Positions 34,988 through 49,227 of a stretch of 64,000 nucleotides of DNA are shown here, in pieces (the stretch's first letter is position 1; every line of letters starts with the position of its first letter). The notes below the pieces were generated by a model. The model made no database searches. It was not told where the DNA came from and was given only the letters and a program-made list of their open reading frames with translations. Origin of the DNA: a virus; the IMG/VR virus record IMGVR_UViG_3300042288_000930, positions 39,228 through 103,227 of that record. One strand, 5' to 3'. The translations under genes and the position numbers were made by a program.

Positions 34988-35647
34988 CTATCCCGTTATA
35001 TCTTTTTCTTCGGTAGTTTTCCAAAAATATTCATCGGTATCCCCCAATCTTCCCCACTTCAGACCAATCTCAGTGCGATAAAACCGAGTAGATATCTTAA
35101 AATCGGGAGTTTTGGGTACTTCTGGCGTCCTAGACGGACTATAAACGCGCATACGATTGTTAGGATACAAGACAAATTGCCCATTTTCTAACAAAATACA
35201 GTTGTGAGACTTGTGCTCTTCGGGCAATTCACTTGTTCCACAGTCAATTTTGTCGTTGTATGGGTGATAATTGTCTAAGCTAAACAAATATTGCCCGCGC
35301 AACTGACCAAAATCGCGGGTGAAGACCTCAAAATCCAGTTCTCCAATGTGTTTTTTCTGTACACAGACGACTCCATAGCTCATACAATCCCAAAATTGTA
35401 GATTTTGAAGGTTCATATCTGGGTTTGGAGTCTGCGGAGAACCACAAAATGCGCTAATTGGTAGTTTATCGTAGAGTGCTCCGTATTCTGGGAGGTACGT
35501 TTCAAAATAAAAAGCACGCCCAGGTATGCTTTTCGCACATACCCAGACGCCCTCTACAAATTCACCATGACCATCTTGTAGGTCTCGCAAATATTCTTTA
35601 CGAACCCAGACCTTTTGAGGTGGCAGATTGGTGATTAATTGACTCAT
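34988..35647 (-). CDS. Conserved-looking cyanophage protein of unknown function
   Basis: This gene encodes 219 residues. It is rich in W, Y and F with many charged residues, and has no signal peptide or membrane segment. Segments such as YGALYDKLPISAFCG, LQFWDCMSYGVVCVQKK and LENGQFVLYPNNRMRVYSP look like a compact globular fold. It sits between a tiny basic protein and gp25 in the late region. The function is unknown; an enzymatic motif could not be named. Confidence 0.75.
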   Translation of the reverse strand: MSQLITNLPPQKVWVRKEYLRDLQDGHGEFVEGVWVCAKSIPGRAFYFETYLPEYGALYDKLPISAFCGSPQTPNPDMNLQNLQFWDCMSYGVVCVQKKHIGELDFEVFTRDFGQLRGQYLFSLDNYHPYNDKIDCGTSELPEEHKSHNCILLENGQFVLYPNNRMRVYSPSRTPEVPKTPDFKISTRFYRTEIGLKWGRLGDTDEYFWKTTEEKDITG

Positions 35648-39210: not shown

Positions 39211-39360
39211 AGGGGGCGGCGTCTCGCTGCCTTGTGCCAGTTGATCAGGCGTCCCAGCCGTGAGTTTAATCAGGGCGACAATCGCCGCCACTCCTGCGGG
39301 TCCAAACCACATGCAGAGGATGATACCCAGCAGGAGATAACGCTTGCGAATGTTAATCAA
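39196..39360 (-). CDS. Tiny membrane protein with TTG start (54 aa)
   Basis: The frame starts with TTG at 39360, overlapping the previous stop as TTGA, the TTG equivalent of the common ATGA coupling. Residues 5-30 contain a transmembrane helix (YLLLGIILCMWFGPAGVAAI) and the tail is polar (QGSETPPPDPVD). The last four codons and stop are supplied by repeat copy 4. Confidence 0.55.
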   Translation of the reverse strand: MINIRKRYLLLGIILCMWFGPAGVAAIVALIKLTAGTPDQLAQGSETPPPDPVD

Positions 39361-45103: not shown

Positions 45104-45132
45104 AATATAGGGCATCAGTCAGCAAAAGTCAA
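45104..45132 (-). promoter_or_regulatory. Sigma-70-type promoter inside the methyltransferase 3' end
   Basis: TTGACT (45127-45132), 17 bp, TATATT (45104-45109), followed by the dyad ATTACTAAGGTAAT. The upstream box ATAAGCAACGCTCAT (45144-45158) is part of the methyltransferase coding sequence. Confidence 0.85.
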
Positions 45133-46023
45133 GCGCCCAGCCGATGAGCGTTGCTTATCAATCACAGATTGTATTCTCGTTGTGCTTATGTCTGTGTAGT
45201 GTTGTGACAAATCAATTCCTACAAAATTTCTATTTTCTTCAATCGCCGCAACGCCTGTGCTGCCTGAACCACAGAAGGGGTCCAGCACCGTAGAATTGAC
45301 AGGAGAATAGATTCTGATAAGATATGCCATCAAATCAATCGGTTTGACTGTAGGATGGTCGTTGAAATCTCCTTTCTCTTTACGAGTAGCACGGGGAGCA
45401 TAGAAATACTTCTGATGCTCTGAATCTACTTCACCAATAATATTGGAAGGATAACGCCCAGCAGGATTCGCATCCACTGTCCCACACTCAGCACCAGAAC
45501 CTTTGGTGTTACCATCACGACCAAATGTACGGCGACTGGCACCACCTTTCACCCAACCAGTAGGAGGTTTCTTATCCCACGGCACACGAGTATTCTCAAC
45601 ATCAATCAGACCACATCCCCACTGCTCAAAGTTATCCTTGAGTGTGCCTTTGTAAGGCTTCTGTGCCACTACAATCGGTTCGTGTGCGGGTTTGAGACGA
45701 TTGTGTTTAGGCATCTTGGTGGTGGTCATCCACATAATCTGATCCTTGATTTCAAACCCAGCATCCTCCACATTCACCGCCAGACGATGATACAATTCAG
45801 GAGAACAGAAAGCTAAACAAAAAGCACCAGGGCGAAGTGTACGAAACACCTCGCGCCAGATGTCTACACTGGGCACAGAATGATCCCAGTGATCCATACC
45901 CATACCATAGGGAGGATCAGTGATACAAGAATGAAAAGTGTTCTCCCCATATGTGGAGAGAACATCTTGACAATTACCAGTTGTGATTGAGAACGTTGAA
46001 TTCACAGGTTTGTCTGTCGGCAT
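45115..46023 (-). CDS. DNA methyltransferase (beta class, N6-adenine/N4-cytosine)
   Basis: This gene encodes 302 residues from ATG 46023. The catalytic motif IV (CITDPPYG, residues 33-40) comes first and the S-adenosylmethionine motif I (VLDPFCGSGSTG, 246-257) near the end, the order of beta-class amino-methyltransferases; DPPY favours N6-adenine. HPTVKPIDLMAYL, just before motif I, is the usual motif X region. The start overlaps the nuclease gene by 50 bp, so modification and nuclease are co-expressed. It may protect phage DNA from host enzymes or from the neighbouring nuclease. A longer frame to 46179 is unlikely. Confidence 0.9.
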   Translation of the reverse strand: MPTDKPVNSTFSITTGNCQDVLSTYGENTFHSCITDPPYGMGMDHWDHSVPSVDIWREVFRTLRPGAFCLAFCSPELYHRLAVNVEDAGFEIKDQIMWMTTTKMPKHNRLKPAHEPIVVAQKPYKGTLKDNFEQWGCGLIDVENTRVPWDKKPPTGWVKGGASRRTFGRDGNTKGSGAECGTVDANPAGRYPSNIIGEVDSEHQKYFYAPRATRKEKGDFNDHPTVKPIDLMAYLIRIYSPVNSTVLDPFCGSGSTGVAAIEENRNFVGIDLSQHYTDISTTRIQSVIDKQRSSAGRLTFAD

Positions 46024-46507
46024 GAGTGAAATAATCGGTTTTGTCTTTACCACCAGACTGAGTATACATGTTGCGAATGTAGAAGTCAAATCCACGATTA
46101 TCGTTCTGCCATTCCTCATCCAGTTGATAAGTTTTGAGAACAGCGTTGAGATCTTCCACCAGTTGAGCGTAGAGTTCACGCTTACGGTGAGAAACTACAT
46201 CATCAGCAAAGAAAATTGTTGTATCGTTGTATTTCTTGGTGCTGAAGATATAGACTACACCTTCTTTAGGAAGTCCACCGTTGTATGTAGGAAATGTTTG
46301 TTTCGAAGACTTACATTCAATGTCAACAGTTTTACCGCTGGGAAGTGTCACGCGAAAGTCAGGCGATGCCTGTGAACCATTCGGTTGATACACATATGTA
46401 TAACCATATTTGTCAAGCAAATCTTTTACTTGCTGTTCGTGAAGCGGATTGTCTTGCGAATTGGATTTGTAAGGAAGTGTAAGAACTTCTTGCCAGAATT
46501 GTTTCAT
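45974..46507 (-). CDS. PD-(D/E)XK nuclease, likely type II restriction endonuclease partner
   Basis: This gene encodes 177 residues from ATG 46507. P49-D50 in SQASPDFRV and E64-C-K66 in VDIECKSSK form the PD-x13-ExK active site. A preceding helix with E24 (HEQQVKDLLDKYG) fits the fold. The following stretch YNGGLPKEGVVYIFSTKKYN resembles several type II restriction enzymes. It overlaps the methyltransferase gene and is first in the unit, with a strong promoter (46548-46577). It probably cuts the site its partner methylates; a repair or phage-exclusion nuclease is the alternative. Confidence 0.75.
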   Translation of the reverse strand: MKQFWQEVLTLPYKSNSQDNPLHEQQVKDLLDKYGYTYVYQPNGSQASPDFRVTLPSGKTVDIECKSSKQTFPTYNGGLPKEGVVYIFSTKKYNDTTIFFADDVVSHRKRELYAQLVEDLNAVLKTYQLDEEWQNDNRGFDFYIRNMYTQSGGKDKTDYFTHADRQTCEFNVLNHNW

Positions 46508-46547
46508 GAATTTCTCGGACTCGATTGCCCGTTGAAAGAACAAATAG

Positions 46548-46577
46548 AATATAGCATGGGCGGTGGGAGTCTGTCAA
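46548..46577 (-). promoter_or_regulatory. Sigma-70-type promoter of the nuclease-methyltransferase unit
   Basis: TTGACA (46572-46577), 18 bp, TATATT (46548-46553). An upstream dyad GGCAAATTGCC replaces the usual ATAAGCAA box. The promoter rules out the TTG start at 46543 and supports ATG 46507. Confidence 0.85.
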
Positions 46578-46845: not shown

Positions 46846-48102
46846 TTATGCGATAATGGAAGTGGGAGGGACACCCTGAACGAAGATAGCATCAACAACA
46901 TTCTGAAGACGCTTCTGAATCTGAGCACCGTAGTTGCCGTAGATAGGCACAGTCACGAAACCAAACGGTTTGCGATAGCTACCCAGGTCACCAGCAGTGA
47001 TACGACCTTCCGCAATGTCACGCGCATCATCCATATTCATGCGGATAACGCGACCGATCGTTTGCGCCATCTCCACAATGTTGAGGTTACGAAGGAGCAC
47101 ACAATGCGTCAGACCAGGAACATTCATGCCTTCAGACAGAATGCTGTAGTGAAACACCACAAACTTACGATTAGGATCTTTGCCCCACGCAGTCAGCGTG
47201 TCAAAGAATACCTCACGATTCACTTTCTGCTTGTTGACATAGGCACCATGCTTGGCGGTGATGTGAAGCACATCATAACCACGCTCAGACAGTTCCTGAA
47301 GCATCGCAGTTTGTGCTACCATACCCCAGATAATCTTGCTGCTAGGTGCTGCTACCAGAATCTTCTGACCAGCATCAGCATCAAGATTGTCAATAATATC
47401 AAGCACAGTGTTGCTGTCACAGTTGGCAGCATTATCCTTAGTGCGAGTCACCATGTCCTGCTCATGAATAACAATCTGAGGAGGAATGATACTACCAGAC
47501 TGAATCAGTTCTTGAGCAGGTACAGTATGAAGAACCTTGCCAAACACAAGCGAATTGTTCATACCACGACCCATCGGATTCTTAGACTGACGAGGAGTAG
47601 CAGTAAAGAAATAGCAAGCGTCAGACATCTGCGAAACCATAGCAGTTTTAGGAAAGAACTGCTTGCTGGTAGCATTATGCGCTTCATCGAAGTAAGCTAC
47701 ATCAATGTCAATACCTGCCTCAACAATCTGGTGAAGAGAATGATAGGTGGTGAAGATAACCTGATGAGCACCAGCAGCAAGACAGACGCCAGTGTGAACA
47801 GCAATCTGAGCAGGTTTGGTGGTGCTGTAATAATGAGTGTCGCCAGAGTGAACATGAAGCACCTCAACATTCATGTTGTAGGTGTTGATAACCTCCATGT
47901 ATTCCTCACACAACTGGTTGACCAGCAGCAACCTGGGACAAATAACAACCGCCGTGAGAGGGCGCTGAGAGGCGCTCAGACGGCGCACAAGGTCCATAAT
48001 GGCAATCAGGGTCTTGCCACCGCCAGTGGGCACATAGACGCTGCCGTGGGTGGCAGTCAGCATCGCATCAATGGCACGTTGCTGGTGGGGACGAAGTTTC
48101 AT
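46846..48102 (-). CDS. SF2 helicase, type III restriction Res/DEAD-like
   Basis: This gene encodes 418 residues from ATG 48102. Motifs in order are KLRPHQQRAIDAM (Q-like), Walker A VPTGGGKT (24-31), DEAH (139-142), TATP (167-170), and motif VI QTIGRVIR (347-354). It is a bare two-domain SF2 motor without a nuclease or long N-terminal domain, so it differs from T4 UvsW, which carries an extra N-terminal domain. Its neighbours are a ParB-fold protein upstream and the nuclease-methyltransferase pair downstream. Strand separation or translocation in a restriction-like or repair system is inferred. The leader carries CAAACGAC. Confidence 0.9.
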   Translation of the reverse strand: MKLRPHQQRAIDAMLTATHGSVYVPTGGGKTLIAIMDLVRRLSASQRPLTAVVICPRLLLVNQLCEEYMEVINTYNMNVEVLHVHSGDTHYYSTTKPAQIAVHTGVCLAAGAHQVIFTTYHSLHQIVEAGIDIDVAYFDEAHNATSKQFFPKTAMVSQMSDACYFFTATPRQSKNPMGRGMNNSLVFGKVLHTVPAQELIQSGSIIPPQIVIHEQDMVTRTKDNAANCDSNTVLDIIDNLDADAGQKILVAAPSSKIIWGMVAQTAMLQELSERGYDVLHITAKHGAYVNKQKVNREVFFDTLTAWGKDPNRKFVVFHYSILSEGMNVPGLTHCVLLRNLNIVEMAQTIGRVIRMNMDDARDIAEGRITAGDLGSYRKPFGFVTVPIYGNYGAQIQKRLQNVVDAIFVQGVPPTSIIA

Positions 48103-48125
48103 GTGAATGTCGTTTGTATGAATAT

Positions 48126-48154
48126 AGTATGGCACGAAAAAGCAGGGAGCGCAA
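48126..48154 (-). promoter_or_regulatory. Sigma-70-type promoter of the helicase gene
   Basis: TTGCGC (48149-48154), 17 bp, CATACT (48126-48131), with the dyad box ATAAGGAATGCTTAT (48166-48180) 11 bp upstream. Confidence 0.75.
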
Positions 48155-48183: not shown

Positions 48184-49227
48184 TCAGTTCCAAACAAGAT
48201 AGTAAAGCTTAGCAGGATCTTCTTCTTGTAGATCTTGAGCAAGAAAGCGATGTTCACACTCAACATGATTCCAAGGAAAATTAGAACCACAACGTTCATG
48301 AATCATACCCATGATAGTACAGATTTGACGCTCAACGCTCTTCAAATCATCGGTAAATACCTTTGCGCGAGTAGTATCAAGTTCTTGTTTTTGATAGAGT
48401 TTAACCGAAATCAGCAGGTGAAGAGGTTTGTTGGCAGCAGATGCTTGTGCCGCCATGTTAATCAGACTATTGATTCGAGAATCAAAATTGTTCATGTTGA
48501 TATACATGGTATACTCAGAAGTATTGTTCCAATACTCATTCACCCAAGGATCTTCAGTATTTTGAAAAAACAGATCCAGTTTCTCATCATTCCAATCAGT
48601 AAAACGAGTTTCTGAAGTTACTTTACCACTAAAGATACGCTCAGCAATCAAACGATTGTATACAGATTTGATAGAACTTTCAGAAATAGCTCCAGTACCA
48701 AGAAAACGGACTTCGGTTTTAATATCTTCGTCAGTGATAATAGCACCAAGATTGATGAGAGCACGAATAGCAGATTCTACATCTTCGCGGGAAGGAGGAT
48801 TGTAAACATCTTCACGCTTTTTATTAGAAGCAAGGGCAAACTTAATCTTTGCTACTTCATCGGCAAAACGAACACCTTGCGCCATCCATCCATCAATACC
48901 AAGTATATTAGATGCAAGGAAACGATGCTCACCATTGATACGATCAAGCGTATCTACATCATAGTAAATAACAGGTTTGTCAGTATCAATGCCATTAGTT
49001 TCAATATCCAATTTAAGTTTTTCTACCTGACCAAGATTAGCACCAAAAGCGCGACCAGGATTCTTCCAAGGATTCAAAAGATCCCACTTCATCATATGAG
49101 GTGTGCCGACAAGTTCAACACCATCAATATTGTATGTACTAGGAGTGTAACACCAAGAATCAGGATCACAAGCAATAGCATCCCAATAAGTAGAAACAAA
49201 ATTGTGTTCGGCAACAGAAGCAATCAT
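48184..49227 (-). CDS. ParB/Srx-fold DNA-binding or nuclease-like protein
   Basis: This gene encodes 347 residues. Residues 68-125 (VEKLKLDIETNGIDTDKPVI then DRINGEHRFLASNILGIDGW) follow the ParB N-terminal pattern, with INGEHRFLAS as the 'GxxR' box. The middle part is helical with SESSIKSVYNRLIAERIFSG, perhaps a helix-turn-helix; the C-terminal 130 residues are unrecognised. ParB-like folds in phages occur as nucleases, CTPases and modification-system partners. It precedes the helicase gene by 81 bp and has its own promoter. Confidence 0.7.
   Translation of the reverse strand: MIASVAEHNFVSTYWDAIACDPDSWCYTPSTYNIDGVELVGTPHMMKWDLLNPWKNPGRAFGANLGQVEKLKLDIETNGIDTDKPVIYYDVDTLDRINGEHRFLASNILGIDGWMAQGVRFADEVAKIKFALASNKKREDVYNPPSREDVESAIRALINLGAIITDEDIKTEVRFLGTGAISESSIKSVYNRLIAERIFSGKVTSETRFTDWNDEKLDLFFQNTEDPWVNEYWNNTSEYTMYINMNNFDSRINSLINMAAQASAANKPLHLLISVKLYQKQELDTTRAKVFTDDLKSVERQICTIMGMIHERCGSNFPWNHVECEHRFLAQDLQEEDPAKLYYLVWN

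Follow-up and report, generated by a model that had tools for sequence, protein, structure and literature searches.

Complete restriction-modification (R-M) pairs are considered unusual in lytic phages, since the phage itself could fall victim to the nuclease. Here we describe two overlapping genes, encoding a nuclease (N) and a DNA methyltransferase (M), which probably form a compact type II-like R-M pair of a T4-like cyanophage. They lie in a 64,000-nucleotide section (hereafter the window) of the 103-kb IMG/VR virus record IMGVR_UViG_3300042288_000930, from position 39,228 to 103,227. T4-type baseplate proteins, a ferredoxin, and similarity to Synechococcus phages mark this virus as a cyanomyovirus.

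The locus resembles bacterial type II R-M systems in having two separate but overlapping genes, an intact PD-(D/E)XK nuclease, and a beta-class methyltransferase with a match to MTase_II; furthermore, N relatives in Mycoplasmopsis and in a Helicobacter phage record are paired with methyltransferases. It differs in that it is carried by a T4-like phage, and in that the N family has no Pfam, NCBIfam, or PADLOC model. Adjacent virus-borne nuclease and methyltransferase genes are also found in chloroviruses and marseilleviruses (PMC7019647, PMC7253447), and the best viral fold match of N is an algal-virus protein. However, the hosts of those viruses are eukaryotic, while the present pair belongs to a T4-like cyanophage. 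Host DNA breakdown within minutes is credited to chlorovirus virion restriction enzymes, which do not lead to mutual exclusion (PMC7019647); marseillevirus R-M enzymes cause no degradation of host DNA (PMC7253447). Jumbo-phage fusions of Mom with a restriction endonuclease (REase) have been proposed to attack the DNA of host or rivals and at the same time shield that of the phage (PMC7824862). The same logic is proposed here, and in both cases modification is coupled with a REase-fold nuclease, but the fusions use a Mom-type acyl modification joined to the nuclease, whereas M is a separate S-adenosylmethionine (SAM) methyltransferase. Finally, the cyanobacterial PD-(D/E)XK homing endonuclease I-Ssp6803I shares its fold superfamily with N and is of similar size, although the similarity is at the superfamily level only (E 4.4e-3) and homing enzymes have no partner methyltransferase. 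A full-text search of the open literature found no description of such an N-M pair in cyanophages.

The nuclease and methyltransferase genes

The genes and the promoter-like sites that accompany them are as follows:

45974..46507, minus strand: nuclease N, predicted PD-(D/E)XK, 177 aa, phrog_18119; ATG at 46507, stop at 45974; invariant PD-x13-ECK, AlphaFold pLDDT 85.9, Foldseek matches at the superfamily level
45115..46023, minus strand: methyltransferase M, beta-class N6-adenine/N4-cytosine type, 302 aa; ATG at 46023, stop at 45115; Pfam N6_N4_Mtase (PF01555), E 1e-36, and PADLOC MTase_II, E 1.6e-40
46548..46577, minus strand: promoter-like site of sigma-70 type, TTGACA-18-TATATT, 5' of N; 11/12 consensus positions, a consensus match alone
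46061..46089, minus strand: second promoter-like site, TTGACT-17-TATACT, within the N gene and 38 bp 5' of the M ATG; 10/12, a consensus match alone

N is a 177-residue open reading frame (ORF) that carries the motif PD-x13-ExK, as an earlier, sequence-only reading of the window had stated, in the form P49-D50-x13-E64-C65-K66. All 78 relatives that were checked retain an intact motif, and P49, D50, E64, C65, and K66 are invariant in an alignment of 36 of them. E24, P49, D50, E64, and K66 remain invariant across members from cyanophages, other phages, Helicobacter, and Mycoplasmopsis. The AlphaFold2 model of N (pLDDT 85.9, pTM 0.81) has a confident PD-(D/E)XK core in which the site is intact; a fold lacking it would have spoken against the reading as an R-M-like pair. 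Foldseek matches include a SPARDA nuclease, I-Ssp6803I, EcoRV, and Hjc, all at the superfamily level; among viral proteins, the best match comes from the algal virus Micromonas pusilla virus SP1 (E 4e-6). N consists of a single PD-(D/E)XK domain, and no modification-reading domain is seen in its 177 residues. A search of the sequence against the PDB gave no significant match; its one family match is to phrog_18119, of unknown function. The N family is a new PD-(D/E)XK family without prior functional annotation. The predicted fold and invariant motif suggest that N, like the nuclease of a type II system, is a separate endonuclease with an intact catalytic site.

M is likewise a separate SAM-dependent DNA methyltransferase, as in type II systems. 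Its catalytic and SAM motifs, DPPY at residues 36-39 and FCGSGSTG at residues 250-257, are where the earlier reading had placed them, and the order of motif IV, target-recognition region, and motif I assigns it to the beta class. The reported 50-bp overlap with N holds when counted from the M ATG (46023). However, an in-frame GTG at residue 7 (position 46005) would shorten it to 32 bp, and the annotated M start in phage S-SKS1 gives 23 bp, so the exact start of M is uncertain; relatives overlap by between 23 and 143 bp, according to the start chosen. In S-CAM4 (locus L002, 5844-6731), M is annotated as a 165-aa fragment and an opposite-strand ORF is called, but the frame is intact over 294 aa, matching the annotation in ACG-2014j. 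Frame breaks occur in two other copies (L075:6001-7341, both N and M; L033:6494-7358, M), reflecting sequencing errors or decay.

The site 5' of N scores highest within the 5.1 kb scanned, which contain 19 promoter-like sites versus 9.8 in shuffled sequence. The proposal that one strong promoter serves both genes is supported only in part: the strong site is there upstream of N, but the internal site (46089-46061), just 5' of M, could drive M alone, so that M may also be transcribed by itself.

Both genes are under purifying selection, with a median dN/dS of 0.116 for N and 0.140 for M (60 pairs each). These values (0.12 and 0.14 when rounded) rule out the reading of the pair as a remnant or pseudogene. 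The distances of N and M are also correlated (Mantel r 0.64, p 0.001).

Linkage of N with M and exchange of partners

Among 50,697 phage records, nine encode N at more than 60% identity, and the same nine, and no others, have M above 60% (S-SKS1, S-CAM4, ACG-2014j, and marine virus AG-345-F15); beyond them the next-best M is about 45% identical. The cultured phages S-SKS1 (grown on Synechococcus WH7803), S-CAM4, and ACG-2014j carry the pair, for which GenBank names the methylase only and leaves N unannotated. In IMG/VR, where counts are of contigs and not of independent events, 78 viral contigs encode N. M is directly downstream or overlapping, or one gene off, in 54 of them; three have another methyltransferase, eight end too soon downstream, and 13 lack an adjacent methyltransferase. 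The 13 constitute one group, and the three of its contigs that extend 10 kb upstream all encode an 86% identical M there. Searching from M yields the same pattern. The exceptions are contigs that end upstream, the 10-kb group, one contig in which M follows a ParB-like gene of family XA (see below), and contigs in which another nuclease replaces N. The presence of M near N in 54 of 78 contigs indicates that the pairing is not due to chance. The genes are linked and kept as a pair, as in type II systems, and the pairing survives swaps of partner. The earlier view that a matched nuclease is rare in phages therefore needs qualifying, since it is a common feature of one section of the T4-like cyanophages.

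The N family abuts or overlaps three unrelated types of methyltransferase: beta, gamma, and a third, "SPPY" type. Beta-class partners occur in cyanophages and other phages, including further phage relatives of N that lie beside more distant beta methyltransferases (L170-L175). Gamma-class partners occur in a Helicobacter pylori phage record, where a 28% identical N relative overlaps the methyltransferase (PADLOC MTase_II, E 7e-208) by 8 bp, and in Mycoplasmopsis cynos, where the overlap is 11 bp; between these two, the methyltransferases are 44% and the nucleases 33% identical. The third type, with motifs DPTAGWGG and TSPPY, occurs in other phages and there too overlaps or abuts a relative of N. 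Conversely, a 225-aa protein with its own PD...ECK motif, N2, replaces N before the same M (L130:2280-2957, L132:2144-2818, L160-L165). A profile comparison relates N2 to N across the catalytic region (E 6.5e-6), and in 6/6 N2 loci N2 precedes a ParB-like gene and then M. The repeated association of one nuclease family with unrelated methyltransferases is as cognate R-M predicts and is not expected of unrelated neighbours.

About one third of the N-M loci have a single gene between the two, often with overlapping starts and stops (for example L046:6631-7584, L048:6534-7691, and L083:4503-5900). It belongs to one of three unrelated-looking families with ParB-like boxes, XA (~320 aa), XB (~385 aa), and XC (~420 aa). 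A model of XA is confident in the N-terminal domain only, and its best PDB matches are Caulobacter ParB at E 0.03 and sulfiredoxin at E 0.66, so that the ParB-like label is suggestive only. The window's own pair has no intervening gene. A ParB-like candidate at 48184-49227 (minus strand) lies directly upstream of a ResIII-type helicase gene (46846-48135, minus strand), an order shared with Synechococcus phage S-H9-1. Membership of this candidate in the system is unsupported: it has no match to XA, and its S-H9-1 relative adjoins the same helicase. The helicase is rejected as a subunit, being a core cyanophage gene found in 418 phage records. With the nearby helicase a core gene and no ATPase domain in N, the locus shows no dedicated ATP-dependent helicase or translocase of the type I/III kind.

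Other observations concern the surroundings of the pair. N is frequently flanked by a DUF6267 gene, which carries a ligase-like KxDG motif (L039:5790-6767 and 38 further loci). Cyanophage contigs with N and M also contain second pairs of a small ORF and a beta-class methyltransferase (L036:1995-3301, L015:7559-8867), and the 191-aa partner in the second pair of L036 and L033 matches PADLOC REase_II weakly (E 3e-4); some phages may thus carry two R-M-like pairs. Prochlorococcus phage P-SSM7 (L176:5281-7554) encodes a 178-aa protein with a D-x-ExK-like motif directly 5' of two tandem dam-type methylases, near PSSM7_052, which is related to the ParB-like family XB. The ferredoxin gene of the window (phrog_3704; 34988-35647, minus strand) is close to the baseplate genes.

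Proposed mechanism and its alternatives

The activity, cognate specificity, timing, and target of the pair may be pictured as follows. M would methylate an amino group (N6-adenine or N4-cytosine) within a specific motif of the phage genome, and virion DNA methylated in the previous cell would arrive marked and safe in the next. There N, an endonuclease that by analogy with its fold class is probably a homodimer, would cleave DNA whose M motif is unmarked. N comes first, behind a sigma-70-type and probably early promoter; M would be translationally coupled to N or expressed from its own internal promoter. Methylated phage DNA would have no need to avoid its own motif, and the nuclease-first order would be tolerable because a lytic phage must save only its own, already methylated DNA. 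N would most likely attack the host chromosome at an early stage of infection, as in chloroviruses, and the DNA of co-infecting phages.

Together, the gene structure, the intact site in the predicted fold, linkage, co-inheritance, purifying selection, and partner swapping bear out the initial interpretation of an R-M-like pair, and comparative sequence evidence strongly favours a type II-like pair over chance neighbours. Several points weigh on the other side. N matches no family or restriction enzyme in Pfam, NCBIfam, or PADLOC; its PDB fold matches reach E 1.3e-3 at best, at the superfamily level, and single out no restriction enzyme; two short-pattern scans of bacterial genome contigs, not a full survey, found no N relatives; N and M are ~10 kb apart in one contig group; and the Mantel correlation may arise in part from the shared ancestry of the phages.

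If N and M are an R-M pair, its selected role might be to keep out co-infecting phages instead of attacking the host chromosome, a tenable though not a probable alternative, and one compatible with the pair itself. Marseillevirus pairs, which leave host DNA undegraded, set a precedent, and the patchy distribution of the pair (N above 60% identity in nine records versus 418 for the core helicase) is as expected of a competition gene. However, the chlorovirus enzymes are credited with the opposite behaviour, and the placement of N first, behind an early-type promoter, fits host attack, which is slightly favoured.

A bolder and rather doubtful proposal sees in the pair the smallest version of a modular cyanophage R-M operon. 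In this operon, a ParB-like protein would serve as a DNA-sliding, specificity, or regulatory subunit, and nucleases, ParB-like proteins, and methyltransferases would be exchanged as parts.

It is distinctly unlikely that the two functions are unlinked, with M a solitary anti-restriction methyltransferase and N a merely adjacent nuclease for recombination, host-DNA breakdown, or homing, or a resolvase. The homing endonuclease I-Ssp6803I and the resolvase Hjc do stand beside EcoRV among the fold matches of N, and in the contig group with M 10 kb away the DUF6267 gene lies directly upstream of N. Yet across distant genomes N is paired with three unrelated methyltransferase types and in nearly every case overlaps or abuts them, whereas a free-standing homing endonuclease has no dedicated modification partner. 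Moreover, M retains a PD-(D/E)XK neighbour where N has been replaced, and the separated-N contigs of sufficient length still encode M. Highly improbable is a modification-dependent (type IV-like) N that cuts methylated host or rival DNA while M has another purpose; such an enzyme is known in an archaeal virus (PMC10101028), but with M in its operon the phage would be marking its own DNA for destruction, and the single-domain N shows no modification-reading domain.

Significance for cyanophage biology

Many cyanophage contigs, as well as cultured isolates, now link a previously unannotated nuclease family to methyltransferases, and the locus yields a new PD-(D/E)XK family together with a candidate three-gene variant. 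Were the modular operon real, it would represent a new phage R-M architecture built of exchangeable parts. The cultured carriers S-SKS1, S-CAM4, and ACG-2014j make it directly testable in a marine phage-host system how a restriction enzyme of its own benefits a virus, by demolition of the host or by exclusion of rivals.
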